From IMG/VR virus record IMGVR_UViG_3300049846_000643, positions 1-25,978 of that record: a stretch of DNA of 25,978 bases; one strand, written 5' to 3'. This document shows positions 4,907-18,793 of this stretch, piece by piece (position 1 is the stretch's first letter; every line of letters starts with the position of its first letter). The position numbers and the translations under genes are program-made. The notes below the pieces were generated by a model. That model had not been told where the DNA came from and did no database searches. It was given only the letters and a program-made list of their open reading frames with translations. This DNA is from a virus.

Positions 4907-5551
4907 TCAATAGTTGACCTTCCCCACATTCGGGAACTGGTACCGCTTGGGGAGAGGCCCGTACTTGCTGACCAGCCCCCCGTCCACCAGAAGTTGCCGC
5001 CAGATGGTTTTGAGACGGTTCTCTGCGTTCATCTTTTCCCAGGCACGCCGGTAGGCGTACAAAGGTTCGATGGGTCTACGGGTGTCGTTGGCTTCGGCAT
5101 CTTGGGCTGGGATGGGGTATTGGGTGCCGAACGCGCCGCCCCTGGGAGCCCACAGCCGCTTGCCGTTCTTGGCTCGGGCAACTTCGATCATTGTTTCGGT
5201 GTAGTCGGGGGCTGCGACGGCGGAGCCTTCTTCGATGATGCGGTAGTACTTAGCCTGGGATCGGGCGAGGTGGGTGTGGATGCCCACAGAGAAGCCGTTG
5301 TTTCCGAAGTCGATGTTGCCGCGCTGGCGGGTGACCTTGGCGAGGGTGCCCTTTTTGCCTCGCCTTGGGTTCTTTTCCCTAACGCTACGCTCAGCCTCAA
5401 TAATATTTGCAGTCTCATTCTGCAACTCTGTCGCCAACGTTCGGTAGAGCGGCTTCAACTTATTGTATGCAGCGTTGATCTGTCCTGCGTTACCAGGCTG
5501 GCCGCGCACGCCACCAGGGTTATCAAATGAGAAGTAAACGGTGACTCCCAT
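4907..5551 (-). CDS. Probable tail completion / HK97 gp10-like head-tail joining protein (214 aa)
   Basis: The protein has an N-terminal helical part (about 25-55, YNKLKPLYRTLATELQNE), a basic linker (NPRRGKKGTLAKVTRQRG), and a mixed beta region with FSVGIHTHLARSQAKYYRIIEEG. That pattern recalls gp10-like proteins, where a helix is followed by a strand pair and a YxxxxExG-type turn. The C-terminus ends in a Tyr/Lys-rich segment. The gene lies between the small gene at 5553 and the major tail protein, where tail-completion proteins are normally found. The ATG follows the upstream stop by 1 nt, with AGGGTGAAG upstream. The assignment is positional plus weak pattern matching; a minor tail protein is the alternative. 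Confidence 0.5.
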   Translation of the reverse strand: MGVTVYFSFDNPGGVRGQPGNAGQINAAYNKLKPLYRTLATELQNETANIIEAERSVREKNPRRGKKGTLAKVTRQRGNIDFGNNGFSVGIHTHLARSQAKYYRIIEEGSAVAAPDYTETMIEVARAKNGKRLWAPRGGAFGTQYPIPAQDAEANDTRRPIEPLYAYRRAWEKMNAENRLKTIWRQLLVDGGLVSKYGPLPKRYQFPNVGKVNY

Positions 5552-5552
5552 G

Positions 5553-5813
5553 TCACTTCACCCTCATATGAATATCCCGCAAGAGTTCCAACGCTTCACC
5601 GTTCACGACAGAACCGTCATTTACACTTGCCTTCAGAATATCCAAACAGGTGTCATGATATGCGCCAACCGATGAAAGCACCTTCTCCCGGAACACCCGT
5701 TGCTCAACTGGCGTCAACCGCTCAAACAACGTCTTCTCCGCATGAGTCATGATCGAACCCACCAGACGCTTCCGCTGCTCGATCAGCAAGTTCTTCACAA
5801 AATCTGAAGACAT
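5553..5813 (-). CDS. Small helical protein of unknown function in the connector region (86 aa)
   Basis: I do not recognise this family. The product is a small, mostly helical, charged protein (MSSDFVKNLLIEQRKRLVGS, ending LRDIHMRVK). I chose the ATG at 5813 because it overlaps the upstream TGA (TGATG) and has GAGGAG 8 nt before it. In-frame GTG codons at 5819 and 5816 would add two residues but sit too close to that ribosome site. Translational coupling to the tail-terminator gene suggests a virion-assembly role, possibly a chaperone or minor connector component. Confidence 0.7.
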   Translation of the reverse strand: MSSDFVKNLLIEQRKRLVGSIMTHAEKTLFERLTPVEQRVFREKVLSSVGAYHDTCLDILKASVNDGSVVNGEALELLRDIHMRVK

Positions 5814-6328
5814 CACCACACCTCCTCAGGGAACTCCACAAAGGCGGTACAGCGAACGGTCTGCCAGTAGATCGGCAACCGGTAAATCTGCTCCCGCTCC
5901 ACATCGGTGAACTCGAACCGCCACCCCGCCACATCAGTCGGCGGGTCCTGGGTGTGGTCCTGGACCGCCAAGATGCGCTTGGAGTTGGTCAGCCTCCCAC
6001 GAAGAGCGTCACGAACGTCCGTTGCCAGAGCCAAAGCGTGAGCGGACTTGTCCTGGAAGATGTCCACGAAGAACGGCAGTTCCTGGGAGTGCAGCGGGCC
6101 GCCCAGTTCCTCCTCCGACGCATCAAACTCGTCACCGAGGGTGATCGCCACCAAACCGCTGGTGACCTTCGTCAACTCCGACTCCGGGGGCAAGTACGTC
6201 TGGATACGCACCTGCGTCGCCCCGAAAGGGGGCGTACTGGAAGTCCAGTCCAAAGCGTCCAACTGGTCAGTGAGGTAGTCCACGATGGTGGCGTGGATGT
6301 GACGGGGGGCGTACTGCAACCAAGCCAT
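5813..6328 (-). CDS. Probable tail terminator protein (171 aa)
   Basis: The protein is alpha/beta: an N-terminal helix (RHIHATIVDYLTDQLDALDW), several strands (VRIQTYLPPE, LVAITLGDE, LPFFVDIF), a second helix (AHALALATDVRDALRG), then paired strands ending in YWQTVRCTAFVEFPEEVW. This matches the layout of gpU/gp17-type tail terminators, which cap the tail tube and present it to the head stopper. Length and position (after the stopper, before tail completion and the major tail protein) also fit. Start ATG with a GAGGG-type ribosome site. No similarity search was possible. Confidence 0.6.
   Translation of the reverse strand: MAWLQYAPRHIHATIVDYLTDQLDALDWTSSTPPFGATQVRIQTYLPPESELTKVTSGLVAITLGDEFDASEEELGGPLHSQELPFFVDIFQDKSAHALALATDVRDALRGRLTNSKRILAVQDHTQDPPTDVAGWRFEFTDVEREQIYRLPIYWQTVRCTAFVEFPEEVW
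6013..6026. repeat. Motif GAACGNNCGTTGCC, coding copy in tail terminator gene
   Basis: GAACGTCCGTTGCC; encodes Ala-Thr-Asp-Val on the minus strand. Confidence 0.6.
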
Positions 6329-6329
6329 C

Positions 6330-6776
6330 TCAGCCCTCGTCTTCGCTGCGACAGTGAACGATGTACACGTCGATGGTTCCCAAAGCCACCGGAGGCTCCG
6401 TGCGCTGGTAGAAGTACTTCTGGCCCTCGATCACGCAGTAGTGGAACCCCTTGATCTTGTCGAAGTCGGTGTCCAGGAACGTCAGTTTGATCTTCGACGG
6501 GTTGACCACCGCGAACGTCTCGATCTTGCCGTCCCCATCCACATACTCCACAGCGCAAGGAACCCGCTTCTTGACCAGCGCAGATGTGGTCAGGCTCGCC
6601 GTGGGGCTGAACGGAACCCCCTCATCATCCAAAGGGTCAGTCGAGGTCACCGTCTGCGGCATGAAGAAGGTCGGCTGGTCACCGGTCGTCGTGGGCAGAC
6701 CGAAGTTCATCGCCGTCAGAAGGCCAGCCCGAACCGCCGCAGCGTTGAAACTGGAAGGGGTGCCTGAAGCGGCCAT
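6330..6776 (-). CDS. Probable head-tail stopper / connector protein (148 aa)
   Basis: Residues about 60-148 are beta-rich, with strand pairs such as LVKKRVPCAVEYVDGDG, KIKLTFLDTDFDKIKGFHYCVIEG and YFYQRTEPPVALGTIDVYIVHCRS. This recalls the small beta-barrel stopper proteins (SPP1 gp16 / HK97 gp7 type), which close the portal channel after packaging. The N-terminus (about 1-55) is Pro/Thr-rich and likely flexible. It lies directly between the adaptor and tail-terminator genes, each a few nt away. The function is mainly inferred from position and fold texture. Confidence 0.5.
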   Translation of the reverse strand: MAASGTPSSFNAAAVRAGLLTAMNFGLPTTTGDQPTFFMPQTVTSTDPLDDEGVPFSPTASLTTSALVKKRVPCAVEYVDGDGKIETFAVVNPSKIKLTFLDTDFDKIKGFHYCVIEGQKYFYQRTEPPVALGTIDVYIVHCRSEDEG

Positions 6777-6779
6777 GGG

Positions 6780-7271
6780 TTACCCCCCGAGTTCCGCTGG
6801 GTAGAACCCGTCCTGAAGCGCCCAGTTGACCGCTGAGCGGGTGAAGTAGGAGTCGAGAACGACCGTTCCGCCGGTCCTCTTCGCCTGGGCCACCAGGTCG
6901 TCGCGGCGACCCATCAGGTACTTCAGTTCCTCCCGCAGAAGAGTGGAAGACCGCTCAATTTCGTACGACACAGGTCCGGCGTTGTACTTCTCGGACAGGT
7001 TCAGCGCACGCATCTGGGCGCGGATGATCCGCATCCCCGTGTACAGAACGATGAGGGCACCCCCACCGGCTGACAGATCAGGGTCAGTCAGGTACGTGTC
7101 CAGGTCGAGGGTGTAGTCGGAGAAGTACCCATCGAGTTGGGCTTCGGAGAAGCCGTCAGCCAGCGAGTCGAGAAGGTCCTGGTCACCGGTGTTCGGGAAC
7201 ACCGAGTCGTAGGTGCCAGGAACCGCAAGTTCACGCTTCAGGGGCTCAACAAGTTCCGCCAGATCGCTCAC
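6780..7271 (-). CDS. Head-to-tail adaptor (connector) protein (163 aa)
   Basis: The product is all-helical with a central run LIVLYTGMRIIRAQMRALNLSEKYNAGPVSYEIERS, followed by LLREELKYLMGRRDDLVAQA. This is the usual character of the first connector ring beneath the portal (SPP1 gp15 / HK97 gp6-like): helices, then a Tyr/Glu-containing loop that touches the portal. I chose the GTG at 7271 (MSDLAELVEPLKREL) because AGGAGG lies 4 nt upstream; an in-frame TTG eight codons earlier lacks such a site. It begins the connector block, separated from the portal and capsid genes by the 10-kb accessory block, which is unusual. Confidence 0.65.
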   Translation of the reverse strand: MSDLAELVEPLKRELAVPGTYDSVFPNTGDQDLLDSLADGFSEAQLDGYFSDYTLDLDTYLTDPDLSAGGGALIVLYTGMRIIRAQMRALNLSEKYNAGPVSYEIERSSTLLREELKYLMGRRDDLVAQAKRTGGTVVLDSYFTRSAVNWALQDGFYPAELGG

Positions 7272-7347
7272 TGCGCCTCCTGCCGTGACGCACAACTGGC
7301 GTCAATGCTTCAAAGTTCTCCTTGCCTATTCATCGTCCTCTGAGGGG

Positions 7348-7692
7348 CTAGTTCTGAGAGTCGCCGTCCAACACGACCAGTTCGAAGTCGCCACCGTTGA
7401 CGGCCATGGCCATCTCACGGCAGTCCTCCTTGTTGACATACCCCTCACCGGAATCGGACACGATGTCACCCTGACCGGCGTCCCGATGCCACCGCCACTC
7501 CCCAGCATCGTCCTTGTACATCAACACTGTGTGCATCGCAGCCTCCTTGGCTTGCAGTTTGGTGATGACCTGCCCGAGCAGCAGGTTGTCGGCGTGAGAC
7601 GCCTCCAGAGCGGCCCTGAGGCGTTCGTTCTCCTCCGCGAGCCAGGTGATCCAGCCTGCGGCTTGGGCGGCGTCTTCGGTGTAGGAGGTCAT
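7348..7692 (-). CDS. Coiled coil plus YegP/DUF1508-like domain protein (114 aa)
   Basis: Residues about 17-52 form a leucine-zipper-like helix (LAEENERLRAALEASHADNL). Residues about 56-100 read VLMYKDDAGEWRWHR, then GDIVSDSGEGYVNKEDCREM. The K-D-x-x-G-E-W-R-W start, the SGEGY turn and the following helix match the YegP/DUF1508 fold, a small beta-beta-beta-alpha module usually found as tandem copies in bacterial proteins. I chose the ATG at 7692, just after the stop of the giant fibre gene. It lies between the fibre and the head-tail adaptor, so a virion or fibre-oligomerisation role is plausible. Domain recognition is from memory of the family pattern. Confidence 0.65.
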   Translation of the reverse strand: MTSYTEDAAQAAGWITWLAEENERLRAALEASHADNLLLGQVITKLQAKEAAMHTVLMYKDDAGEWRWHRDAGQGDIVSDSGEGYVNKEDCREMAMAVNGGDFELVVLDGDSQN

Positions 7693-7702
7693 AATTTGGA
7701 CA

Positions 7703-10700
7703 CTACCTAATCGGGACACCCCAGCCCCGGAACGGGGTGCGGCGAGTTGTGACAATCGGAACGCCCACATCAGCAAACGCTTCGATCAGGGCCGCAGCGA
7801 TAAGGGCGGAACCGGCCAGAGAAGCCGCGCCGATGGTGGCAACCCCTCCGACCGTAGTGGGGGTGGCTGCGGCCCCGGCGAACAAGTTCGGCAGGGGGAC
7901 GGCGACGGTAACGGTGACAGCGGATGGAGAGGCCAGAGTTCCCGCCGCCGGGGTGGGGCCTGGAACGGCGGCGGTGGCGGTGACCAGGGCTACCGAGAGG
8001 GTGGACCCGGCGATGATCGTGACATCGCCGATAACGACGTGGGGGGAGCCGACGCCGAGATCGGGGAGCGTAGTGCCCGCCGAGATGGTGGGTGGCGTGA
8101 TGGTGGCCCCGGCCTGCTCAGTGGGGCTAGGAACGGTCGTTACCGCAGACACCACGGACGGTGTAACGGTGGCGCCGCTCGACGCGGTGACTGTTGGGGC
8201 ACCTACTGTGGCGATGGCGCTGACCCGTGCGGGGGTGGCGGCAGAACTGGCGCTGAGGGTTGGGGAGCCAACGGTCGCGGCGGCGGAGACTGAGGAAACC
8301 CCGGCGACAAGGGTGATTCCCGGTGTCGCCACGGAGGCGGTCGCCGAAACAGCAGACGCCGCGATGGTAGAGCCGGTGCTGAGAGTGGGAGCGCCGACTG
8401 TGGCTGCGACGGAGACGACGCTTGGGTTGGCGGTGTTCGCGGACCCAGCAGTGACGGTGGCTGATCCGACCGTGGCAACGCCCGTTACCAGAGATGGGGT
8501 GGCGGTGGAACTGGCGCTCAGCACCGCTGTTCCAACAGTGGCAGTTCCAGCGACGACCGATGTTGCGACAGCGGCGCCAGACGTGAAGACCGCCGTCCCG
8601 ACCGTGGCCACACCCGCGATTACCGAAGGTGTGACGGTGCTGGACGCCCGAACGACAGGGGAACCGACTGTGGCGGTACCGGCGACGTTGGATACTCCAG
8701 CGACGAGGGTGATCCCCGGTGTGCCAACGGTCGCGGTTCCTGCGATGACAGTGGGGGTGGCTACAGCACCGGCTTGGACAACAACCGAGCCGACCGTCCC
8801 GGTCGTGTTGATGGTGGCTGGGCCGAGCGGGACAACGACCGTTCCCACCGTCGCAACTGCGGACACCCTCGACGGAGTGACAGTGGAACTGGTGCTGAGA
8901 GTGGCCGTTCCGACTGTGGCGACACCGGAGACAACGCTGGGCGCGACGTTGACGTTGCCTTGGGTGGAGATCGACGGGGAACCTACCGTGCCGACGCCGT
9001 TGACTGTGGCGGCCTGCGCTGGTTGGACGTTGGCGGTGCCAACGGTGGCTGTCCCGTTGACGATGCTGGGGGTGGCGGTGGCCGCCGACGTGAAGGTGAT
9101 AGAGCCGACTGTGGCGGTTCCTGCGACGACGGTCGGTGTGACGGTGCTGGATGTTTGAACGACGGGGGAGCCGACCGTGGCGACACCGGCGACAACGCTG
9201 ACCCCGGCGACGAGGGTGATCCCTGGCGTACCGACCGTAGCGACACCCGCAACAACAGATGCGCTGACCGTTTGGGATGCTTGAACGACCGGAGCACCGA
9301 CCGTGGCGACACCTGCAACAACGGCGGGAGTGACGTTGACCCTGCCGCTGACGACAGGAGCACCGACAGTTGCGACACCGTTGACGATGGATGCTGAAAC
9401 GGTCTGGGACGCCTGGACGGTGGGGGCGCCGACAGTGCCGACCCCTACGACGGTGGTGAGCCCTGCGACGGGCGAGACACGTGCGGTACCGACAGTTGCG
9501 ACACCGGACACCACGGAAGCGGCAACGGTCTGGGACGTCTGGACAACTGGGGAACCAACAGTTCCGACACCAGCAACGGCAGAAGGTGTGACGTTGACCG
9601 TACCGGAGACGACTGGCGCACCCACTGTTGCGACACCAGAGACAACAGCAACGCCAGCCACCAAGGTGATACCTGGAGTACCGACTGTGGCAACACCCGC
9701 GACGACTGCGGCGGCGACCGTCTGCGATGTTTGCAGTGTGGGCGCACCAACAGACGCAACACCCGCAACGACGGCAGGCGTGATGGTGACCCTGCCGCTG
9801 ACCACTGGGGTGCCGACAGTTGCGACCCCGGAGACAATGGATGCGGTGACTGTTTGCGATACCTGAACTGTCACCGATCCGACCGTTGCGACACCGGAAA
9901 CGGTGGCAAGGTTGGCGACTGGCGCTACCTGAGCGGTCCCGACAGAAGCAACAGCAGAAACAACAGAAGCCGCGACTGTCTGCGATACCTGAACAACTGG
10001 AACGCCGACCGATGCGACACCGGAAACCACCGTGGGGATAACGTTGGCTGCTCCTGAGACAACCGGCGCGCTAACTGTTACGACCCCCGCGACGGTGGTG
10101 ATGTTCGCCGCTGGCTGGACACGTGCGACGCCGACCGTGGCGACACCCGCAACGGTCGTTAGGTTCGCAACTGGGGTGACCAGAGCAACACCGACAGTGG
10201 CGACACCTGCAACAACCGACGCGGCAACAGTCTGAGATGCCTGAACGACCGGAGACCCGACCGTCGCCACACCAAGAACAGCATCGGCCTGCTCGATCGC
10301 GGGGATGTTTGGGGCAGGCAGGGTGGCCGTGCCTGCAACGGTGGCAGGACTGATCGTCACCGATGTCAGCAGGGTCGGCGACCCGACAGTGCCGACACCG
10401 GAAACGGTCGTTAGATTCGCAACCGGAGCGACACGACCGGTCCCCACTGTTCCAACGCCCGCAACGACGGATGCCGCGATAGTTACCGAAGTGAGAAGAG
10501 TGGGCGTGCCGACCGTTCCGACACCTGCAACAGTGGTCGCTTCTTCCGTGGCCGGAATGTTCGGCGCCGGAACGGTGGCCACAGCAGACACGATGCTGGC
10601 CGTGATGTCCGCGTTCCCACCGCTGGTCGTGACAGTTGGTGTCCCCACCGTGCCGACGCCTGCAACAGTGTCCGGGAATCTAGGAACCGCCACCTGACCC

Positions 10701-13006
10701 ACCGATGCGGCACCAGCAATGGTGGACCCGGTGATCGTCGCGTCGCCCCACAACAACTTCGACAGAGTGATGCGGTCAGTCGAGTTGGCGTAGTCGCGGC
10801 CCGTGAACGAAATGGAGACGGCGTTTCCAGTGTCAGTGAACGACAGGATGCCGTACTGCCGATACGTGGTTCCCGCGTCGTCGGCAGTGGGGTAGGTGGA
10901 CTGGGACCATGTGCCGCCACCCTTGACAGTTCCAGTATTCGACATCGGCGCTGCGACGACGACAGGGAACCCGCCCGGAGCGTTGGCACCGGAATCCGCT
11001 GCGACCATGTGCGAGTCGCCGCACATGAACATGACGCCCTTGATGTTGTTCGACGTGATGTGGTTGACAATCTCAGTGCGTTCAGTGGTGTACGCGCCCC
11101 ACGTGTCCAGGCTGGTGGATGAGGCGTGCCATACGATCGACGACACGATGACGATAGCCTTCTCCGTCGCCGCATCGAGGGTGTCGAACAGCCACGTCTT
11201 CTGGGTGGACCCGAGAACAGTCTTCGACGAGTTGTCCGTGTTCCCGGTTGGTGACCGCTTCGAACGGCAGTCCAGGACGATGAACCGGACCCGACCGATC
11301 ACGAACGTGTGGTTCGCCGTATCCGACGCTGGCAGCGTGTAGTAAGGCACCCGCTCCCGGTACAGATTGTGGACGGCGGGGAGAGTAACGGTGTTCAGAT
11401 CGACAGAGTTACCGCCAGCGTCGTGGTCATCGAAGATGTAGTCCATCGGCATGTCGCGGAGAGCCTGCCGAACGGCTTGCTTCTTGGTGGCGACACGCCA
11501 CGAGTCCCGCACCAGCGTGTCAGAGTTGGATGCGACATCTTCGTAGTGGATGTCGCCCGTGTGCATGAAGAAGCGAGCCCCGTGTGACGCCGCACCGTAC
11601 CAGGCATCGGTCGTGGACAGCGACGTTGAGCACCCACCGAAGGTGACGGTGAAGTTGGTCTGCGTTCCGGGGGTGGGGAAGGTCTTCAGCGAGCCCTTGC
11701 TGTTGGCGTCGTGATACTTCTGCCCCGTGGAGTCTTCGAGGAAGAAGTAGTAAGTCGTGTCGGCGGTCAAACCAGACAAGTTGAACCGCGTGATTCCGTT
11801 GGCTGCGATGGTCTGGTAGGCGGTGTAGGTGGGTGAGGTGAGGTTGGAGTTGGTGGTGTAGCCAACCCTTGCGGATGTGATCGACAGGGTGTTGAACGTG
11901 ATCGCTGCGGTGGTGTCGGTGACTGCTCCTTGCCAACGGTCCAGAACTGTTCCGGCAGTGACAGAGTTCTGTATCCAGTCGGTGGGGGAGATGGCAACGT
12001 CGTCGAGCCACAGCAGTTGTGTGACGTTGGCGGTGTTCCCGAAGCGGGCTTGGTTGCCGTTGGTGCCGTAGTTGGTTCCGGTGGATGTCACTGTCTGGGT
12101 TGGGACCAGAGAGTTCGGGGTGTTGTACAGGCGCAGTTCGGAACTGCCTGCGGTGGTGGAGTGGACCACTTTCAGTTCGATGCGACACCACGACCCGAGG
12201 GGGATGCTGGATGTGGTGACTTGATCGTTGCCGACGCCGTTGATGACACGGACGGTGCCCGTGGTGGTGATCGCGATGGCGGCTGATGTGGCTGCGGTGG
12301 AGTCGTCGAGTTGGAAGATGCGGCGCACTGCGGATGGGTTGGCGTCCATCCGAAGGTAGAACCGCACATACGTTGTGGAGAATGGAGCGGAGCCGAGGTC
12401 GAAGTCCTTCCACCAGAAGTAGGCGTTACTGGTGGTGTTGATTTTGATGGACCGGGTGCCGTTCGCGAACGTGGATGTGTCGTAGGTGATGGTGTTACCC
12501 ACAACGTCGGTGACTTGGGAGAACTGGTCCCCCGCGTACGACGACAGCAGCGAAGTGAGTGTGGTGCCGTTGGAGCCGTTCTCAAAGGTGTTGCGGAGAA
12601 GGTGCGCGGTGGGTAGTGGGTTGAGCGCAGGCGATCCGACCGAGGCGACAGCCGCGACCCGCGTGGGCGTGACCGTCGCGTTGGGGTCCGTGATGACCAC
12701 GGTAGGGGCCGGGACCGAGGAAACAGCAAAAACCGTATCTGGGGTTTCCGGGATAATCGCGTCGCCGAAAGTGACTACAGCCAGAACGGTGTCTTCGGCA
12801 TTGATCGCATCGCGACCAATCGGGTACGTTCCGGTGTTCCCATCAAGGTAGCGGGATCGAGCAATCTTCCGCAGCGACCGGCGCTCCTCGGACCCGACCA
12901 GTTGCGTGTTACCCGTCAAGTTGAAGACAGACGCGGCACCAGCCGACGAGAGCGTGGAAGACTTCCGCTGAAGGTTGCGGATCAGGTTGGTGTTGACCGT
13001 AGTCAT
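7703..13006 (-). CDS. Giant repeat fibre with lectin-like and PhoD-type phosphatase domains (1767 aa)
   Basis: Virion fibre candidate. The N-terminus (1-65, MTTVNTNLIRNLQRK) is probably the attachment segment. Residues 73-130 hold three degenerate repeat units (TVFAVSSVPAP, RVAAVASVGSP). Residues about 135-345 look like a concanavalin A/LamG-type beta-sandwich (YVRFYLRMD, GSWCRIELKVVH, LLWLDDVAIS). Residues about 355-447 resemble an FN3-like domain. Residues about 450-752 match PhoD-type metallophosphoesterases, with GDIHY (484-488), DDHDAGGN (526-533), LDCRS (579-582 region) and CGDSHM (662-667) as expected metal-site motifs. Residues about 762-1740 are some 46 tandem units of 20 or 22 residues, consensus V-[AS]-G-V-A-T-V-G-x-P. 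It starts at ATG 13006, coupled to a small beta protein upstream. The enzyme role on virions is inference; repeat and motif content is directly visible. Confidence 0.85.
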   Translation of the reverse strand: MTTVNTNLIRNLQRKSSTLSSAGAASVFNLTGNTQLVGSEERRSLRKIARSRYLDGNTGTYPIGRDAINAEDTVLAVVTFGDAIIPETPDTVFAVSSVPAPTVVITDPNATVTPTRVAAVASVGSPALNPLPTAHLLRNTFENGSNGTTLTSLLSSYAGDQFSQVTDVVGNTITYDTSTFANGTRSIKINTTSNAYFWWKDFDLGSAPFSTTYVRFYLRMDANPSAVRRIFQLDDSTAATSAAIAITTTGTVRVINGVGNDQVTTSSIPLGSWCRIELKVVHSTTAGSSELRLYNTPNSLVPTQTVTSTGTNYGTNGNQARFGNTANVTQLLWLDDVAISPTDWIQNSVTAGTVLDRWQGAVTDTTAAITFNTLSITSARVGYTTNSNLTSPTYTAYQTIAANGITRFNLSGLTADTTYYFFLEDSTGQKYHDANSKGSLKTFPTPGTQTNFTVTFGGCSTSLSTTDAWYGAASHGARFFMHTGDIHYEDVASNSDTLVRDSWRVATKKQAVRQALRDMPMDYIFDDHDAGGNSVDLNTVTLPAVHNLYRERVPYYTLPASDTANHTFVIGRVRFIVLDCRSKRSPTGNTDNSSKTVLGSTQKTWLFDTLDAATEKAIVIVSSIVWHASSTSLDTWGAYTTERTEIVNHITSNNIKGVMFMCGDSHMVAADSGANAPGGFPVVVAAPMSNTGTVKGGGTWSQSTYPTADDAGTTYRQYGILSFTDTGNAVSISFTGRDYANSTDRITLSKLLWGDATITGSTIAGAASVGQVAVPRFPDTVAGVGTVGTPTVTTSGGNADITASIVSAVATVPAPNIPATEEATTVAGVGTVGTPTLLTSVTIAASVVAGVGTVGTGRVAPVANLTTVSGVGTVGSPTLLTSVTISPATVAGTATLPAPNIPAIEQADAVLGVATVGSPVVQASQTVAASVVAGVATVGVALVTPVANLTTVAGVATVGVARVQPAANITTVAGVVTVSAPVVSGAANVIPTVVSGVASVGVPVVQVSQTVAASVVSAVASVGTAQVAPVANLATVSGVATVGSVTVQVSQTVTASIVSGVATVGTPVVSGRVTITPAVVAGVASVGAPTLQTSQTVAAAVVAGVATVGTPGITLVAGVAVVSGVATVGAPVVSGTVNVTPSAVAGVGTVGSPVVQTSQTVAASVVSGVATVGTARVSPVAGLTTVVGVGTVGAPTVQASQTVSASIVNGVATVGAPVVSGRVNVTPAVVAGVATVGAPVVQASQTVSASVVAGVATVGTPGITLVAGVSVVAGVATVGSPVVQTSSTVTPTVVAGTATVGSITFTSAATATPSIVNGTATVGTANVQPAQAATVNGVGTVGSPSISTQGNVNVAPSVVSGVATVGTATLSTSSTVTPSRVSAVATVGTVVVPLGPATINTTGTVGSVVVQAGAVATPTVIAGTATVGTPGITLVAGVSNVAGTATVGSPVVRASSTVTPSVIAGVATVGTAVFTSGAAVATSVVAGTATVGTAVLSASSTATPSLVTGVATVGSATVTAGSANTANPSVVSVAATVGAPTLSTGSTIAASAVSATASVATPGITLVAGVSSVSAAATVGSPTLSASSAATPARVSAIATVGAPTVTASSGATVTPSVVSAVTTVPSPTEQAGATITPPTISAGTTLPDLGVGSPHVVIGDVTIIAGSTLSVALVTATAAVPGPTPAAGTLASPSAVTVTVAVPLPNLFAGAAATPTTVGGVATIGAASLAGSALIAAALIEAFADVGVPIVTTRRTPFRGWGVPIR
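7780..10717 (-). repeat. Array of about 46 protein-level repeats, GVATVGxP type
   Basis: Unit lengths alternate between about 22 residues (variants with VVQASQTVAASVV or VVSGRVNVTPAVV) and 20 residues (variants with GITLVAGV or ARVAPVANLTTV). Nucleotide identity between units is only moderate, while the core GV[AG]TVG and the alternating hydrophobic pattern persist. This suggests old amplification kept by selection. Units near the C-terminus are more degenerate. The pattern favours a beta-structured, probably trimeric or solenoid-like shaft. Confidence 0.85.
12617..12790 (-). repeat. Three degenerate copies of the fibre repeat upstream of the enzyme cassette
   Basis: Residues 73-130 of the giant fibre read TVLAVVTFGDAIIP, TVFAVSSVPAP and RVAAVASVGSP in succession, matching the unit found after residue 762. 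The lectin-like and phosphatase domains (about 131-760) therefore interrupt the repeat array rather than precede it. Confidence 0.65.
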
Positions 13007-13018
13007 CGGTCACACCAC

Positions 13019-13294
13019 CTACGGGTAAATGATGTCGAGGCGAACGTCGGTTGGGTGGTCAGTCACGAACCGGAGAACATCCCCTTCCACCGGGTTCGCT
13101 GGGGTGATCTGTTGACCGGCGTTCTTCCACCAGGAGTGAGGCACGTTGATGTGTACCCGATCCACCAGTTCTTCGTTGAAGTAGACCTGAAAGTCGGCGA
13201 CCAGCCCACCCACCGGCGACGCGGACGCGAACTCGATGTAGCACGGCGCGGTGAACGTGTGTTCCCATTCGTCTTCGACGCGGATGACCGACAT
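13019..13294 (-). CDS. Small beta-rich protein next to the fibre gene (91 aa)
   Basis: Unknown family. The product is short and beta-rich (EWEHTFTAPCYIEFASASPVGG, ADFQVYFNEELVDRVHINV, VRLDIIYP), with an aromatic segment PHSWWKNAGQQ. I chose the ATG at 13294, which overlaps the upstream TGA as TGATG; a GTG one codon earlier is possible. It is encoded 12 bp before the giant fibre start, so it could be a fibre cap, attachment or folding protein. That is a positional guess only. Confidence 0.65.
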   Translation of the reverse strand: MSVIRVEDEWEHTFTAPCYIEFASASPVGGLVADFQVYFNEELVDRVHINVPHSWWKNAGQQITPANPVEGDVLRFVTDHPTDVRLDIIYP

Positions 13295-13734
13295 CACTCA
13301 TCCCACGTCAAGTAGGCGTCGGACACCTGGCCGGTGCCGGTGGCGATGATCCCGACACCGTTACTGGTGCCCTTCGGAACGTAGATTCCTGCGTTCTCAC
13401 CGTAGAACGACAAGATGGTGCCAGCACCGATGGCGGCACCGATCGGCATGGCTGCGATGTACCCACCCAGGGTGGGAGCGACAGAGTGGGGAGCGAAACC
13501 GGTAGTGAGGATCGTGGCCGTGGAGTCGGGGCCGTGAACAACCTCAGTCAAACCAGCGCCCTGAGTGCCGGTTGTGGTGAGACGAACCAGGAAGTAGCGG
13601 GCCGCCGTGGTGGTGGTGTTGAAAATGCCCGCCTCGCGGAGGATGAACCCCTGGTTCGCCGAAGCGTAGATCGAAATGCACGGCAAGGTCGCCGACCCTG
13701 CCGCGCCACCGATCTGTGTGACGGACGCCCTCAT
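13294..13734 (-). CDS. Beta-rich virion protein of unknown function (146 aa)
   Basis: I do not recognise it. It is Gly/Thr/Ala-rich and strand-forming (CISIYASANQGFILREAGIFNT, RYFLVRLTTTGTQGAG, GAGTILSFYGENAGIYVPKG), a composition typical of small capsid- or fibre-associated domains. The ATG at 13734 has GGGAGA upstream. It lies between the alginate-lyase-like gene and the fibre genes and is translationally coupled to the next gene. Likely a structural component of the same appendage, but this is inference from neighbours. Confidence 0.65.
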   Translation of the reverse strand: MRASVTQIGGAAGSATLPCISIYASANQGFILREAGIFNTTTTAARYFLVRLTTTGTQGAGLTEVVHGPDSTATILTTGFAPHSVAPTLGGYIAAMPIGAAIGAGTILSFYGENAGIYVPKGTSNGVGIIATGTGQVSDAYLTWDE

Positions 13735-13759
13735 CTACTGTCTCCCGATTCTGTGCGCA

Positions 13760-14719
13760 TCACTTGATCCAATCCGTGAACCCGAACTGGCGGCCCAACC
13801 CTGCTGCGTTGACCGGGCCTAGCGTGATCCCGTAGGCGTTGTTGATCTCCCACGGGATGTACTGGTTGACCGAGTACAGCGGCGGGTATCCCTTGACCGA
13901 GGCCAGGAACTCACCGGCCCGGCGCAGCGCCGAGTCGCCCCACTGGTAAGCGTTCGGATGCCCAGCGCGTGACAGGACACGGCATGACAGTGACCAGCCG
14001 CCGATGAACTCCCACGAGTAGGTGCGGCCCGTGTCGTCCACAGTCGGGTAGGTGCCCGCCGACCGGCTGATGTCCTCGACGCACGCGCCCGACTTGCCGG
14101 GGAAGCCTGCCGGGTTGACCGGTGTCCAGTTGGTGGCGTCGGTTGCCCACGTCGGGTCGAAGTCTGCCGTCTTGCGGAAGCCCGCGTAGGCGGTGCGGTC
14201 GGAGTAGCCCTTCACGATGGTGGCGCAAACACCAAGATCGGTGGTGTCCGCGAGGTAAGCCGACGCTGCGATGCGGGAGGCCATCGCCCACCCGCCCCAG
14301 TTGTTGGCCGAATCTTCGGAGGTGAACTTGATCGTGTACCAACGGGAGTGCCCGCCGATATTGAACCAGCGGATCGTGTCAACCCACTGAACAAACTTGG
14401 GGTCGCGGTATCCGATCAGGTCGGCGGCGAGAACGAAACCAGCAACCTGCCGTGCAACAGACAGGACCCGGGCGTTCGCCAACGAGGCGGTCGGCAGCCC
14501 AGCCAGAACAGTGCGGGTCTTGTCCGCGTGGGCGGTGGAACCAGTTCTGGCTGCGACGAGTGCAGCCGCCAACGTCTTACCGGCGGTTGTGGAGTTTTGA
14601 TCCGCAAGAGCGACCGTTCCCATGGACCCGTCTGCGACAGACTTGACTTTGGTCCAGGGCGCGCCCGAGGTGGGGAACGCGAGGAGGCGCGTCTTGTCAA
14701 CGACAAGGTAATCACTCAT
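13760..14719 (-). CDS. Alginate-lyase-like polysaccharide depolymerase candidate (319 aa)
   Basis: Residues about 60-280 have the helical, Trp/Tyr-rich look of the alginate lyase superfamily (alpha/alpha toroid). Visible hallmarks are NNWGGWAMASRIAASAYL (about 139-156), a later VEDISRSAGTYP segment, and TYSWEFIGGWSLSCRVLSRAGH (about 233-254). In PL5 enzymes the first motif is NNH with a catalytic His; here the His is replaced by Trp, as in NNWG-type members I recall from actinobacteria. Substrate and activity are therefore uncertain. I chose the ATG at 14719 (MSDYLVVDKTRLL), with AGGAG 7 nt upstream; an earlier in-frame ATG falls inside an inverted repeat and lacks a ribosome site. The neighbouring fibre makes a virion-bound capsule- or glycan-degrading enzyme likely. 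Confidence 0.65.
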   Translation of the reverse strand: MSDYLVVDKTRLLAFPTSGAPWTKVKSVADGSMGTVALADQNSTTAGKTLAAALVAARTGSTAHADKTRTVLAGLPTASLANARVLSVARQVAGFVLAADLIGYRDPKFVQWVDTIRWFNIGGHSRWYTIKFTSEDSANNWGGWAMASRIAASAYLADTTDLGVCATIVKGYSDRTAYAGFRKTADFDPTWATDATNWTPVNPAGFPGKSGACVEDISRSAGTYPTVDDTGRTYSWEFIGGWSLSCRVLSRAGHPNAYQWGDSALRRAGEFLASVKGYPPLYSVNQYIPWEINNAYGITLGPVNAAGLGRQFGFTDWIK

Positions 14720-14740
14720 GTGTGCTCCTGGCGTGGTGGA

Positions 14741-14789
14741 GTGGTACGGCATCCCCGAACTTGGGCGGCGAGAGGATGCCGTACCACTG
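14741..14789. terminator. 15-bp perfect inverted repeat between two virion genes
   Basis: Arms 14741-14755 (AGTGGTACGGCATCC) and 14775-14789 are exact reverse complements around a 19-nt loop. It lies 3 bp past the stop of the upstream gene and 21 bp before the lyase-like start, so the transcript hairpin could terminate, attenuate or protect the RNA. No U-run follows on either strand. Confidence 0.6.
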
Positions 14790-14792
14790 GCC

Positions 14793-15296
14793 TTACGGTG
14801 TCAGGTCGATCGCGAACACACCGGTGGACGCCCACTGGATACCGAAGGTGCCGTTTGACGTGGAGTAGTCCGCGCCGAAGTTCACGACACACCAGATCGG
14901 GTCGGCGGTCGCGGCGGTGACCGCATCCATGTACAGGACCGCAGCGCGGGCGTTGGTCAGAGTGGTCGATGCCACCGACACATCGTTCATGTCGTATGAC
15001 GTGGACCCTGCGGTCAGGGTGCCCGCGTCCAGGGTCGGGGACAGCGAGGTTGAACCGGACGCGGCGGTGGAGAAGTCCCTACCGCCAGCGGACCAGCCAG
15101 TGCCCGAAACTTCGTTCGCGCTGATGCCAGCCCAGCCGTGCGTCGAGTCGTAGGCGACAGCGGTGAAGCCGGTCGAGTTGATCAGGGCGATCTTGTTGTT
15201 GCCGGATGAGGCGCCCGCAAGGGACACCTGGCCGGTGTACGCCAGTTTGAGCAGGTTGCTCCACGTAGTGGTGGGCAGGCCGCTGTTGGTTGCCAT
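14793..15296 (-). CDS. Small Ser/Thr/Gly-rich virion protein (167 aa)
   Basis: Function not recognised. The N-terminal 25 residues contain a helix (TTWSNLLKLAYTGQVSL). The remainder is beta-rich and Ser/Thr/Gly-rich (NKIALINSTGFTAVAYDS, STSYDMNDVSVASTTLTNA, ARAAVLYMDAVTAATADP), ending in TGVFAIDLTP. The style is that of capsid decoration or fibre proteins in actinophages. Start ATG with GGGGAG upstream. It is followed by a strong inverted repeat, so it may end a transcription sub-unit. Confidence 0.65.
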   Translation of the reverse strand: MATNSGLPTTTWSNLLKLAYTGQVSLAGASSGNNKIALINSTGFTAVAYDSTHGWAGISANEVSGTGWSAGGRDFSTAASGSTSLSPTLDAGTLTAGSTSYDMNDVSVASTTLTNARAAVLYMDAVTAATADPIWCVVNFGADYSTSNGTFGIQWASTGVFAIDLTP

Positions 15297-15307
15297 CTGT
15301 ACTCCCC

Positions 15308-15493
15308 TTACTCCGTTGAAATGGCCATGGGGCGGCCAGTGCGTGCTGTTGACCGTGCCCTGGTGAACGCTTCCTCCGCGCTTGCCAACGCAGCCTCGTT
15401 CTCCGGGGTCTTGTCCCCGGCAAAAGCCTCCTGAGCGGCTTCCATCTCGGACTGCAACTGGGCCAGAACGCCCTCAACCTGCGGCTCGCTCAT
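15308..15493 (-). CDS. Short coiled-coil protein (61 aa)
   Basis: It is an acidic, Ala/Glu-rich helix predicted over residues about 5-48 (VEGVLAQLQSEMEAAQEAFA, ENEAALASAEEAFTRARS), then a short tail GRPMAISTE. The start ATG directly follows the upstream stop, with GGAGGAG upstream, supporting real translation. The function is unknown. Its place among virion genes and its coiled-coil nature suggest an oligomerisation or linker component. Confidence 0.6.
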   Translation of the reverse strand: MSEPQVEGVLAQLQSEMEAAQEAFAGDKTPENEAALASAEEAFTRARSTARTGRPMAISTE

Positions 15494-15766
15494 CTACTCT
15501 CCTCCAAGTCCTACGTGCAGATCAGGGCGGATCAACACGTCAACGCGGTCATTCTTTGCGTGTTCGGTGGTGAGGTTCCCACGGGTGGTTGCCTCATCCT
15601 TGGTCACCTTCACGCGATGTCCATCTTGCGGATCACGGTATTCACGCCACGACCGCTGACGAGCGGCACCGGTCCCGAACTGCAACGTGCGAACCTTGTG
15701 CTTGAAGCACAAATCGTCGCCGTCACACTTTTGGCCTGGTGAACATTCGTCAACCATCAGAGACAT
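15494..15766 (-). CDS. Cys-rich small protein, possible metal binding (90 aa)
   Basis: The N-terminus holds Cys8, Cys14, Cys20 and His23 in CSPGQKCDGDDLCFKHK, a spacing that could bind zinc. The rest is basic and polar (TLQFGTGAARQRSWREYRDP, EHAKNDRVDVLIRPDLHVGL). Similar CDGDDxCFxHK patterns occur in uncharacterised actinophage proteins as I remember them. ATG 15766 has AGGAGG 4 nt upstream. The function is unknown; the position argues for a structural or assembly role. Confidence 0.65.
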   Translation of the reverse strand: MSLMVDECSPGQKCDGDDLCFKHKVRTLQFGTGAARQRSWREYRDPQDGHRVKVTKDEATTRGNLTTEHAKNDRVDVLIRPDLHVGLGGE

Positions 15767-15792
15767 GACACCTCCTAACCCCTTATCGGCAT

Positions 15793-16248
15793 CTACGACC
15801 GCAAAACTCTGACCATCACGAGGAGGTCTTCTCCGGGGTTTGTGGTGCCTACCTGAACCACGTCCACGGAGAGCCTGTCACCGGCCACGAAGGAGTCTGT
15901 GTCGAACGCGGTGATGACCGCAGACTCGTCCTGACCTGCGGAAATGGTGAGACGGTCGGCTGGGTTGGACCAGACCGAGATGCCGTTGATGAGAACGTCC
16001 ACCACAATGTCCTGTCCAACAGGTGAGACAGAAGTGACAGCCTGGACGCTCAGCATTTGAGCGGAAGTGTCAAACGGGATGTACGTCGTGCCGACCGCAG
16101 GCTCAATCTGGTCCTGCATCGTGAACTGATAAGTCTCATGCGCTGGCCCCGGAACACCCTGGAACCCCGACTGGCTGATCAGAACCGTGTTGTCATCAGA
16201 CTCAACAACGACCGTTACTGCATCGCTGGTGACCGAAACATCAGGCAC
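15793..16248 (-). CDS. Beta-rich appendage protein with a short collagen-like stub (151 aa)
   Basis: Beta-strand-rich throughout (VTVVVESDDNTVLISQSGFQ, QAVTSVSPVGQDIVVDVLIN, EDLLVMVRVLRS) with GVPGP at about residues 31-35, a single collagen-like Gly-X-Pro stub often found near trimerising fibre domains. The chosen GTG at 16248 has AGGAGG 6 nt upstream and overlaps the previous gene by 8 nt. Probable fibre or adaptor subunit; the exact role is unknown. Confidence 0.65.
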   Translation of the reverse strand: MPDVSVTSDAVTVVVESDDNTVLISQSGFQGVPGPAHETYQFTMQDQIEPAVGTTYIPFDTSAQMLSVQAVTSVSPVGQDIVVDVLINGISVWSNPADRLTISAGQDESAVITAFDTDSFVAGDRLSVDVVQVGTTNPGEDLLVMVRVLRS

Positions 16249-16627
16249 GAGTCACCTCCTTGGACACCTTGACCTTGCCCTGGAGATACCTGGTGACCTC
16301 ACCGCCCGAGGACTCCACCTCCAAGTCATACACCCCAGCAGTCCATGCGAGGGCTGCCGTCACCTCATCAGTGATGGTGACAGTGAACTTCCCCTGCCCC
16401 GCGTCAGTGATGACAATCTGCCCACCACCAGTAGTGAGAGCCAACAACGGGTTGAGATCAGCGATCCGCTTCCGAATGTGCATCCTGATCGAGCAACCCG
16501 TCAGATTCACCGGCGTTCCACCATCAGCGACCAAACCGCCCGAAGACAACTGGACGGGCATGGAAAACGTCGCACCCTGCTCAATGGTGATGTTCAGAGT
16601 GCCTGCCTTGCCCAGCAGATCAGCCAC
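16241..16627 (-). CDS. Ig-like beta-sandwich virion protein, fibre adaptor candidate (128 aa)
   Basis: It reads as one beta-sandwich: LNITIEQGATFSMPVQLSS, NLTGCSIRMHIRKR, GQIVITDAGQGKFTVTITDEV, AGVYDLEVESSGGEVTRYLQ and KVKVSKEVTR. The final strand pair ending G-x-V-x-V-S-x-E-V-T-R is a pattern I associate with small tail or fibre adaptor proteins in many phages. It is coupled to the following GTG-start gene. A structural role is likely; which part of the virion it joins is not evident. Confidence 0.65.
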   Translation of the reverse strand: MADLLGKAGTLNITIEQGATFSMPVQLSSGGLVADGGTPVNLTGCSIRMHIRKRIADLNPLLALTTGGGQIVITDAGQGKFTVTITDEVTAALAWTAGVYDLEVESSGGEVTRYLQGKVKVSKEVTRA

Positions 16628-16680
16628 GCCGGACTCCTTCCGTCCTTACTGTCATCGGCGCAGAAGAGGCCCGAATGTGA

Positions 16681-17199
16681 CTACCGGGTAGGTGAAGCGA
16701 CCTCGCCGATCCCCTGAAGTTCCCGGTACATCGGGGTGTCACCGCCGATAGGCCACTTAGTGGCCAACGTGGACTTCAGGGCCTGAATCTGCGAGTTCGT
16801 CGCGTCCAAGTCCTCACACGCCTCCAACAGCCTGCGCACGTTGTACTCATTCAACTGGTCGATCCGCGTGTTGAACTCCGGGCCGGTCGTGTTGAACAGT
16901 TCAACAACGTCCTCAGGGGTGAGGTGGTTCGGGTTCTCATCGTCGTCAGGGCCGATGGGTGGGGTGATCCGGATCAGCATCCCGTTGTTGAACGGGTCCG
17001 CCCGGTCATCGAGGACCTTCTCCTGGTTGCGGAGCCGGTCATACTCGCTGATCCGCAACTTCTGGCCGGGGCGACCACCCGCCTTGACCTTCCGCATGTT
17101 GCCGTCCATGCCGGTGACGTGGACATGCACCCACCCGGTGCCCGTGGTTTCCCAGACCTCTTCGGGGGTCTCAACCTGCTTGATGCTGCGCTCAGTCAC
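16681..17199 (-). CDS. Uncharacterised protein downstream of the capsid region (172 aa)
   Basis: Family not recognised. I chose GTG 17199 because it overlaps the upstream TGA (GTGA), a standard coupled start. Features include VHVHVTGMDGNMRKVKAGGR (beta, basic), a DRLRNQEKVLDDRADPFNNG segment, an acidic Pro-rich linker (ITPPIGPDDDENPNHL), and a C-terminal helical part (NEYNVRRLLEACEDLDATNS, IQALKSTLATKWP). It may be a capsid-associated or connector-proximal protein. Function unknown. Confidence 0.65.
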   Translation of the reverse strand: MTERSIKQVETPEEVWETTGTGWVHVHVTGMDGNMRKVKAGGRPGQKLRISEYDRLRNQEKVLDDRADPFNNGMLIRITPPIGPDDDENPNHLTPEDVVELFNTTGPEFNTRIDQLNEYNVRRLLEACEDLDATNSQIQALKSTLATKWPIGGDTPMYRELQGIGEVASPTR

Positions 17200-17705
17200 T
17201 TCTTCTTCGCCTCTCGGTAGACCCACTTGCGGATCGGCTTGGGCCGGTACGGGTAACGGTCCCTCACCCCGGCATCCAGCGCGTTGTACCCCTGCTTGTA
17301 CTGAGGCACCTGGAAGGTCTTGGACGTGTAGGACATCCCATGAGTGTCGAGGTCCATGACGTGGTAGTGGTTCACCATGTCATCCGCCTCACCCCGCATG
17401 AGAGCGCCCTGCCTGCCGACCTCCCGCAACTTCCGGAGGACGTACTTGGCCTTCTCCTTCTCCGCCCTGGTCTTGAACCCGACATCGCCGTAGAACCCGG
17501 CGTACTGAAGGTCCACCACACCCGCCCCAGTGTGGGAAGTCCCAGAGTAGGAAGTCTGCGGCCTCCAGGAGCCCTGCGGAACAGTGAACCTGAAGTCCCA
17601 GCGGGGATGCTCGTCCCTGATGTGGTTCTCCGTCGCGATCAACGCTTGCCGCTGGCGACGGGTCATGTACGCGCCGCGCCAGATCACCCGGTCGTATTGG
17701 TCCAT
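17196..17705 (-). CDS. M15 / DD-peptidase-like protein next to the capsid gene (169 aa)
   Basis: The core matches the Hedgehog/DD-peptidase (M15) zinc-binding layout: SYSGTSHTGAGVVDL gives His58 and Asp65 with the typical H-x6-D spacing, and NHYHVMDLD gives His113/His115 as the third ligand. The M15 Glu or Asp expected three residues before the last His is Asn112 here, so activity may be altered or another acid may serve. I chose ATG 17705; a GTG at 17741 is in frame, but a 20-bp palindrome and a -10-like TACTAT lie in between. Neither start has a clear ribosome site. It is the first gene after the capsid terminator. It could cleave peptidoglycan cross-links at entry or be a structural relative. 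Confidence 0.6.
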   Translation of the reverse strand: MDQYDRVIWRGAYMTRRQRQALIATENHIRDEHPRWDFRFTVPQGSWRPQTSYSGTSHTGAGVVDLQYAGFYGDVGFKTRAEKEKAKYVLRKLREVGRQGALMRGEADDMVNHYHVMDLDTHGMSYTSKTFQVPQYKQGYNALDAGVRDRYPYRPKPIRKWVYREAKKK

Positions 17706-17712
17706 GTGCTCA

Positions 17713-17740
17713 ATAGTACAAGAACGCCCGTTCTTGTCCA
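17713..17740 (-). promoter_or_regulatory. Promoter-like sequence with embedded palindrome before the M15-like gene
   Basis: On the minus strand TGGACA (17740-17735) is followed by a 16-nt spacer and TACTAT (17718-17713, fits TANNNT). The 20-bp palindrome ACAAGAACG-GG-CGTTCTTGT (17737-17718) fills the spacer, a classic operator position. It contains GAAC-N4-GTTC, resembling Gram-positive LexA boxes. The predicted transcription start falls at or near ATG 17705, so the message could be leaderless. Confidence 0.4.
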
Positions 17741-17751
17741 CGACACGCGCA

Positions 17752-17790
17752 CGAGAAAGCCCCCCAAGTTTCCCTGGGGGGCTTCTCTCG
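17752..17790 (-). terminator. Strong terminator-like hairpin after the major capsid gene
   Basis: Arms 17752-17766 and 17775-17790 pair over about 14 bp with one bulged base (AAGCCCCCCA with TGGGGGGCTT plus outer GAGA/TCTC), loop about 8 nt. It lies 17 bp past the capsid stop, where many phages separate capsid expression from later genes. On the minus strand the right arm runs into CTTTCTC, a weak U-rich end. Confidence 0.75.
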
Positions 17791-17806
17791 CGGGGTCAGT
17801 TACACC

Positions 17807-18793
17807 TTACGGCGTGACCGAGGAGTCCACGATGCGACGCGCCTGCTCTGGGTGGTGGATGAGGCCACCGATGTCCCGCCGACCACGGTAGTGGCGGTAG
17901 TCCACGGTGTTCTCTTCCCAACTCTTGGTCTGCATCCCGCCGTAGAAGGCGAACTGTCCGACGTTGCCGCCGAAGACCCAGAGTTCGTTGGCCGGGATGT
18001 ACGAAGCGCCGTTCTCGTCGGTGTAGTTGAACACCCGAACGACGTTCGCACCACGGTAGGTGCCGACCATGCCACGCGCACGCAGTTCCTCAGCGGCAGC
18101 CTCGGTGAAGTTACCCGAACCGGTACCGATGATGTCGGACACTGCGTCCACCATGGCGGCGCGACCGATCACCGTGATCGGAGCGCGGCCTGCACCCGAA
18201 GGCTTCACCGAGTCACCCACGTCACGGATCGCGTCGTTGAGTTCACCGGAGGTGAGGCCGGTGGAAGCAACGTAGTACGGAGACGTGTTCGGGATGGCCG
18301 CCTGGAGCAGGTTGAACATGCGGCGGTTGATCTCCGCGTCGAGGCGCTGCTCAGCAAGGCTGACCAGTGACTCGATGGTCTCCGCGAAGTTCGCACGCAA
18401 CTTGTCGTCGTGCTCGCTGACGTGGAAGCCAATCGTGTCCCGAGGCAGCGTCCACCGCTCGGTCTTCAACTGGCTTTCCTCGATGTAGCCACCGCGTGAG
18501 GTGTAGAACACCTTCAGACCGCGACGCTCGGTGAGTTCAACGGTGTCGAACTCCTCAACGTTGGCCACCTGGAAGTACGAACCGAACAGGTTCTCGAACT
18601 GGAACCCGTAGTCCAGCCGGGAGGCGACAACGGCGGCAACCTCGCGGTGCCAACGCTCGTCGTCCCAGTTGTTTCGGGCTTCCTCGTTCAGCGAAGCCTT
18701 CAGCCGGTCGTACTCTTCGATGTGCTCGCGGCTCGGACGCCCGAAGGGGTCCATGGAGGCCCGAGCCCGGATGAGGTCGTTTACCTTGGTCAT
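17807..18793 (-). CDS. Major capsid protein, HK97 fold (328 aa)
   Basis: Main shell subunit. The order portal, protease, scaffold, decoration, then this gene is the standard capsid cassette. The N-terminal ~65 residues are helical and charged (IEEYDRLKASLNEEARNNWD). An E-loop-like stretch follows (RRGLKVFYTSRGGYIEES), then the spine-helix region (AETIESLVSLAEQRLDAEIN), the A-domain region (RAPITVIGRAAMVDAVSDII) and a C-terminal NELWVFGG...GQFAFYGGMQ segment. Start ATG with AAAGGGGG upstream. The strong hairpin after the stop fits a highly expressed gene. Fold assignment is by context and length, without a structure search. Confidence 0.85.
   Translation of the reverse strand: MTKVNDLIRARASMDPFGRPSREHIEEYDRLKASLNEEARNNWDDERWHREVAAVVASRLDYGFQFENLFGSYFQVANVEEFDTVELTERRGLKVFYTSRGGYIEESQLKTERWTLPRDTIGFHVSEHDDKLRANFAETIESLVSLAEQRLDAEINRRMFNLLQAAIPNTSPYYVASTGLTSGELNDAIRDVGDSVKPSGAGRAPITVIGRAAMVDAVSDIIGTGSGNFTEAAAEELRARGMVGTYRGANVVRVFNYTDENGASYIPANELWVFGGNVGQFAFYGGMQTKSWEENTVDYRHYRGRRDIGGLIHHPEQARRIVDSSVTP

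Follow-up and report, generated by a model that had tools for sequence, protein, structure and literature searches.

A PhoD-type phosphoesterase cassette near one end of a long repeat protein encoded among structural genes of an uncultured tailed phage

What is a phosphoesterase doing inside a long, repetitive, fibre-like protein of a tailed phage, and has such an arrangement been seen before? We address this question in a 25,978-base fragment that makes up the entire IMG/VR virus record IMGVR_UViG_3300049846_000643 (hereafter, "the window"). An initial annotation, made from the letters alone, had described here an open reading frame of 1767 residues with about 49 repeat units on both sides of a block at about residues 131-760, in which it recognized a lectin-like sandwich, an FN3-like domain and a PhoD-type metallophosphoesterase. 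The frame is present at 7703-13006 and lies on the minus strand, so that the gene reads from an ATG at 13006 to 7703; we refer to its product as P0001. Because the small gene upstream stops about a dozen bases short of this ATG, the fibre gene appears tightly packed in an operon of structural genes. The features discussed below are collected in Table 1.

Table 1. Features of P0001 and of the surrounding genes in the window
Feature	Coordinates	Strand	Basis or remark
Block missing between two neighbouring GX15bay genes; contains fibre and companion genes (9.4 kb)	7296-16680	-	Comparison with GX15bay
Repeat fibre with PhoD cassette, complete gene (P0001, 1767 aa)	7703-13006	-	ORF call and translation
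Residues 1760-1767, C-terminal RGWGVPIR, ending of WG-x-P/H-L/I type	7706-7729	-	Comparison of phage PhoD C-termini
Residues 757-1735, C-terminal array of 20-24-residue V/A/T/G/S/P repeats	7802-10738	-	Repeat scan, autocorrelation
Residues 448-754, PhoD catalytic domain (C459, D485, Y488, D526, D527, N533, D664, H666)	10745-11665	-	HMM, alignment, model
Residues 348-444, Ig/FN3-like N-terminal domain of PhoD fold	11675-11965	-	2yeq aligned over model 218-623
Residues 133-351, jelly-roll domain, fold like PL20 glucuronan lyase, Cip1 and X122	11954-12610	-	Z 18.7-18.9 to 8q29, 2zzj, 3zyp
Residues 86-130, two repeat units ahead of cassette	12617-12751	-	Position-specific scan
Residues 1-73, non-repetitive N-terminal leader	12788-13006	-	Best 17-residue Kyte-Doolittle mean 0.6 in first 60
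Small gene, about 91 aa; 3' end about a dozen bases from fibre start codon	13019-13294	-
gp13760, 330 aa	13760-14752	-	Homologous domains near or in PhoD ORFs of L021 and L037
gp15793, phrog_27064 family	15793-16248	-	Homologues immediately upstream of PhoD genes in L039, L040 and L041
gp16241, phrog_1084 family	16241-16627	-	Weaker matches to L-shaped tail fibre assembly families and BppU_N

The identity of the enzyme is supported by both profile and fold. P0001 scores 59.4 bits with the PhoD profile (PF09423), for which the gathering cut-off is 27 (E 4.5e-16), and all four motifs listed initially (GDIHY, DDHDAGGN, LDCRS and CGDSHM) are found in it. A model of residues 131-760, built with 33 phage sequences, reaches a pLDDT of 86 and a pTM of 0.80. 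Its C-terminal two thirds (model residues 218-623) superpose on Bacillus subtilis PhoD (2yeq) with a Z of 35.5 and an rmsd of 2.6 over 386 residues, and its N-terminal third is a jelly roll that resembles X122, PL20 glucuronan lyase and Cip1 (Z 18.7-18.9, rmsd 2.4-3.0 over 182-194 residues). Profile search and structure prediction thus returned the phosphoesterase and the lectin-like sandwich much as first described. The FN3-like domain was recognized correctly as to its Ig/FN3-like fold; as 2yeq aligns over model residues 218-623, however, it makes up the N-terminal domain of PhoD itself.

We compared the residues mutated in B. subtilis PhoD (PMC4223295) with those of P0001 in a 33-sequence alignment. 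The iron and calcium ligands C180, D207, D265, D266 and D436 correspond to C459, D485, D526, D527 and D664, and the tyrosine of GDxxY and the histidine of GDxH would be Y488 and H666 as judged from the alignment. The GDxxY and GDxH residues are invariant (33/33 sequences) and the other tested ligands are kept in the window, with one exception: the pair N271/N272 is represented by G532-N533-S534, in which N533 is kept and its partner is G532 or S534 depending on the register. A serine at the latter position occurs in the window alone of the 33 rows, 25 of which have N or D there. The metal ligands, whose loss the initial annotation would have counted against the enzyme, are accordingly in place save for one member of this pair. 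The nearest bacterial relatives read DDHDYGGN[DN], with a glycine at the first Asn position too, so this replacement is better seen as a trait of the subfamily. The equivalents of D265 and D266 vary within the phage family. P0001 thus shares with B. subtilis PhoD both the Ig/FN3-like and catalytic folds and the C, GDxxY, DDH and GDxH metal-site residues, and differs from it in one of the paired Asn residues and in the additional N-terminal jelly roll, the whole lying within a repeat protein whose gene is found among the structural genes of a phage.

Outside the cassette, scanning P0001 with position-specific scores for the repeat core recovers 44 units, each 20-24 residues long, and 42 of these score above the 95% maximum of shuffled proteins. 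Two precede the cassette (at residues 86 and 111) and the others run from 757 to 1713, with a spacing that is mostly 20 or 22 residues; a typical unit is TVAASVVAGVATVGTPVVQTSQ. With the unscored units, including degenerate ones at about 1633-1735, the total is roughly 48, so that the figure of about 49 on both sides of the block was a fair count. Across the C-terminal 1007 residues, the autocorrelation at lag 22 exceeds that of shuffled sequences by 21.9 SD, and the part from residue 761 onward is devoid of Lys and Cys and has just 24 charged residues among its 1007. We detect no tandem repeat at the DNA level over the array, which implies that the units are old or are constrained at the protein level. 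A model of the array from its self-alignment is all beta, but at a pLDDT of 54 its confidence is too low for us to claim a fold. A tblastn search of the array against phages gave no match, although low-complexity masking may hide matches, and two DNA-pattern scans of viral contigs showed no second array of the window's own repeat among the matches listed.

How widespread is the cassette? By tblastn we find relatives in 63 phage records, mainly from Streptomyces and Microbacterium phages with a few from cyanobacterial and Thermobifida phages, and IMG/VR scans gave about 50 relatives. The eight phage homologues, when aligned together, diverged too far to yield search patterns, so subsets were used instead; a scan of viral contigs with residues 131-760 of the single protein gave no match. 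Of two scans of bacterial genomes, an alignment-based one found no relative and the other recovered only relatives that match the PhoD part. Across the scans of phage and bacterial genomes, full-length jelly-roll-PhoD matches come from phage sequences only. In a tree of 63 rows, the window and the IMG/VR contig L010 form a sister pair (support 100/100) nested in a well supported, all-phage set of 26, and the phage label requires 4 changes.

The jelly-roll-PhoD combination is already known in phages as PHROG 25497. P0001 residues 137-750 align to positions 3-619 of its 635-position profile (E 2e-68), a likeness shared with Microbacterium phage Alleb and with IMG/VR prophage relatives; these proteins, of about 640-660 aa, do not have the repeat stalk of the window, and Alleb has a separate collagen-like gene nearby. 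Thermobifida phage P1312 encodes another phage PhoD protein with additional domains of carbohydrate-binding type (ORF22, ALA06393.1), for which teichoic-acid hydrolysis was proposed in 2015 (PMC4569894); it differs in its length (1096 aa), in having no such repeat array and in its position after the tape measure and a tail protein gene. In function, a parallel is offered by the tail-associated GDPD (GlpQ-like) enzymes of Gram-positive phages, among them those of enterococcal tail modules, for which cleavage of wall teichoic acid phosphodiesters from the virion is likewise proposed; they belong to an unrelated catalytic family (PF03009), and no repeat stalk is reported for them (PMC10194240). 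Given PHROG 25497 and the P1312 proposal, the initial claim that no such phage protein had been described was too strong. What we did not find described in the literature searched is the mounting of a PhoD cassette near one end of a long repeat stalk.

The closest relative indicates how this mounting may vary. The 1845-aa protein of IMG/VR contigs L009/L010 has a cassette 51-54% identical to that of the window (54% for the PhoD part of L010), and in L010, as in the window, a short repeat-like stretch precedes the cassette, a long array follows it and the gene occupies the same capsid-adaptor position. The L010 repeats, in contrast, are of a TTDTG..GTDS type with a period of 20, and the array is broken by an extra domain. 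We tested whether the two arrays are homologous: their similarity is no better than that of shuffled sequences (bit score 151; null mean 147, maximum 163), and very fast divergence could account for this. A conserved PhoD beside dissimilar repeats points to an enzyme that is kept while its stalk changes, by either replacement or very fast divergence. In L015, L016, L019 and L024, C-terminal arrays of 18-20 residues that differ from the window's lie behind PhoD. The non-repeat domain that splits the L010 array (about residues 850-1040; SSASNNSGTGASSATNVTLPSGINTGD...) has similar-looking counterparts ahead of PhoD in Streptomyces Samistivirus and L041.

The genomic setting was examined against the nearest genome, Caudovirales GX15bay (39% for the terminase, 42% for the capsid and 45% for the tail tube). 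In that genome, the homologues of gp16681 and gp6780 are immediate neighbours; the window has the 9.4-kb block of Table 1 between these two genes. The fibre gene sits in the structural operon between the capsid and head-tail adaptor genes, and the window ends in a tape-measure-like gene; the fibre gene thus lies outside the tail-tip module that follows the tape measure. Between the fibre and adaptor genes, 7348-7692 (minus strand) is a probable small coiled-coil gene (MTSYTEDAAQAAGWITWLAEENERLRAALEA...), and at 17196-17741 (minus strand) we note HTGAGVVDL...H-type motifs that are reminiscent of a D,D-peptidase-like fold, with no PHROG or Pfam match. Two annotations of GX15bay (MK557849, L172) look wrong: the "epimerase" at 16832-18049 is homologous, at 44.6% identity, to the tail-tube-like gene of the window, and a portal homologue is contained in the "PhoH" at 5353-8175.

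The companion genes within the block recur with PhoD elsewhere. A domain of the gp13760 type is fused C-terminally to PhoD in L037 (ORF 7923-11051) and its homologue lies just upstream of PhoD in L021 (2674-4701), which suggests a functional link between the two; an assignment of gp13760 as a polysaccharide lyase from its NNWG motif was dropped, as no HMM or PDB match supports it. In L021, the capsid-adaptor block also holds a 1007-aa protein with a GH5 cellulase domain (10454-13477, E 9e-33). The C-terminus provides another small lead: the WG-x-P/H-L/I ending of P0001 is common to phage PhoD proteins that are otherwise different (L003, L026, L029, L034, L039-L041, L051, L227, L228, L231), and its recurrence may bear on how these proteins are attached or folded.

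Taken together, we consider it reasonably probable that P0001 is a virion-surface fibre of an uncultured tailed phage with an active hydrolase for host-surface phosphate esters, its presence in the virion being suggested by gene context, including the collagen-like or head-fibre-like genes that adjoin PhoD in Alleb and L021. On this reading, the roughly 1000 residues of beta-rich repeats would form a long stalk that holds the cassette at a distance; the carbohydrate-binding-like jelly roll, near the N-terminal end, would engage a host-surface polysaccharide; and the PhoD-family domain, of the Fe/Ca type, would hydrolyse phosphodiesters or phosphomonoesters of the host envelope as the phage adsorbs. 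By analogy, teichoic acid is one candidate substrate. To our knowledge, the hosts of cyanobacterial phages have no teichoic acids; because such phages encode relatives, teichoic acid is unlikely to be the substrate of the whole family.

Two readings would deny this protein either its activity or its place on the virion. P0001 could be an adhesin that uses an inactive PhoD fold for binding only, which we regard as unlikely: N271A or N272A abolished the activity of B. subtilis PhoD (PMC4223295), one Asn of this calcium-binding pair is lost here and the D265 and D266 equivalents are variable, but the glycine shared with bacterial relatives weakens the first Asn as a sign of inactivity, and every other tested residue is kept, the serine at the next position being peculiar to the window. 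It could also be a non-virion phosphatase, produced during infection inside the cell to scavenge phosphate or modify the envelope, its repeats being incidental. PhoD proteins are classically phosphate-starvation enzymes (PMC4223295), the PhoD copies of Samistivirus lie outside the structural genes, and the P1312 relative, proposed as secreted, was not detected in purified virions, where 24 of the 93 proteins were found and several tail proteins were missed too (PMC4569894). However, we find no signal-peptide-like hydrophobic stretch in the first 60 residues of P0001 (Kyte-Doolittle, 17-residue windows), and the gene belongs to a structural operon with fibre-like companions and encodes a 1000-residue repeat array, so that we think this reading improbable.

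If P0001 is a virion fibre, to which part of the particle does it belong? It may project from the capsid or neck and tether the virion to surface polymers on which PhoD acts, a serious possibility that we rate somewhat below an even chance. In the window, the gene lies between the major capsid gene and a head-tail adaptor gene, and PhoD takes the corresponding place, between capsid and adaptor, stopper or connector genes, in L010, L021 and Alleb; the gene after PhoD in L021 matches the head fiber family phrog_5711 (E 2.2e-23); and a "capsid fiber protein" is annotated beside PhoD in two cyanophages. The PhoD ORF of L042 (7782-10229) extends, in the same frame, over a C-terminal domain that matches phrog_13779 and resembles a head-tail stopper; such a fusion, if real, would point to attachment at the neck, but it may be an artefact of sequencing or of gene boundaries. 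P0001 itself matches no known head fibre family. Moreover, relatives are found among tail genes, downstream of tape measure, Dit-like and minor tail genes in L039, L040 and L051 and after the tape measure and one tail gene in P1312; in GX15bay, the gene resembling gp15793 is located at the genome end, near an annotated tail fiber, and gp16241 of the window weakly matches tail-fibre assembly families. P0001 could instead be a fibre of the tail tip, its gene having moved from elsewhere to a place between capsid and connector genes, a reading that is plausible without being the expected one. A phrog_27064 gene is paired with PhoD in the tail-tip module of L039 and L040, near Dit and minor tail proteins; gp15793, of the same family, accompanies the window's fibre; and the entire block is inserted relative to GX15bay. 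However, several phages with only a distant relationship to one another have PhoD in the capsid-connector interval, and such recurrence favours a settled location over a single displacement.

More generally, we tentatively propose, as a possibility that falls clearly short of an expectation, that jelly-roll-PhoD proteins make up a class of phage surface enzymes. In this class, the cassette would be the conserved working part and would sit close to one end of a long stalk; the 18-22-residue repeats of the stalk would be freely replaced from one relative to the next, so that it serves as an interchangeable spacer. The window and L010 are a clear example, in that the enzyme is conserved and the stalks that carry it share no detectable sequence similarity, and this bears on the exchange of parts among phage fibres. 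If P0001 is active, a PhoD-type enzyme would join the known virion-borne surface hydrolases, and it would become possible to ask whether phages strip phosphate-containing polymers from the host envelope during adsorption.
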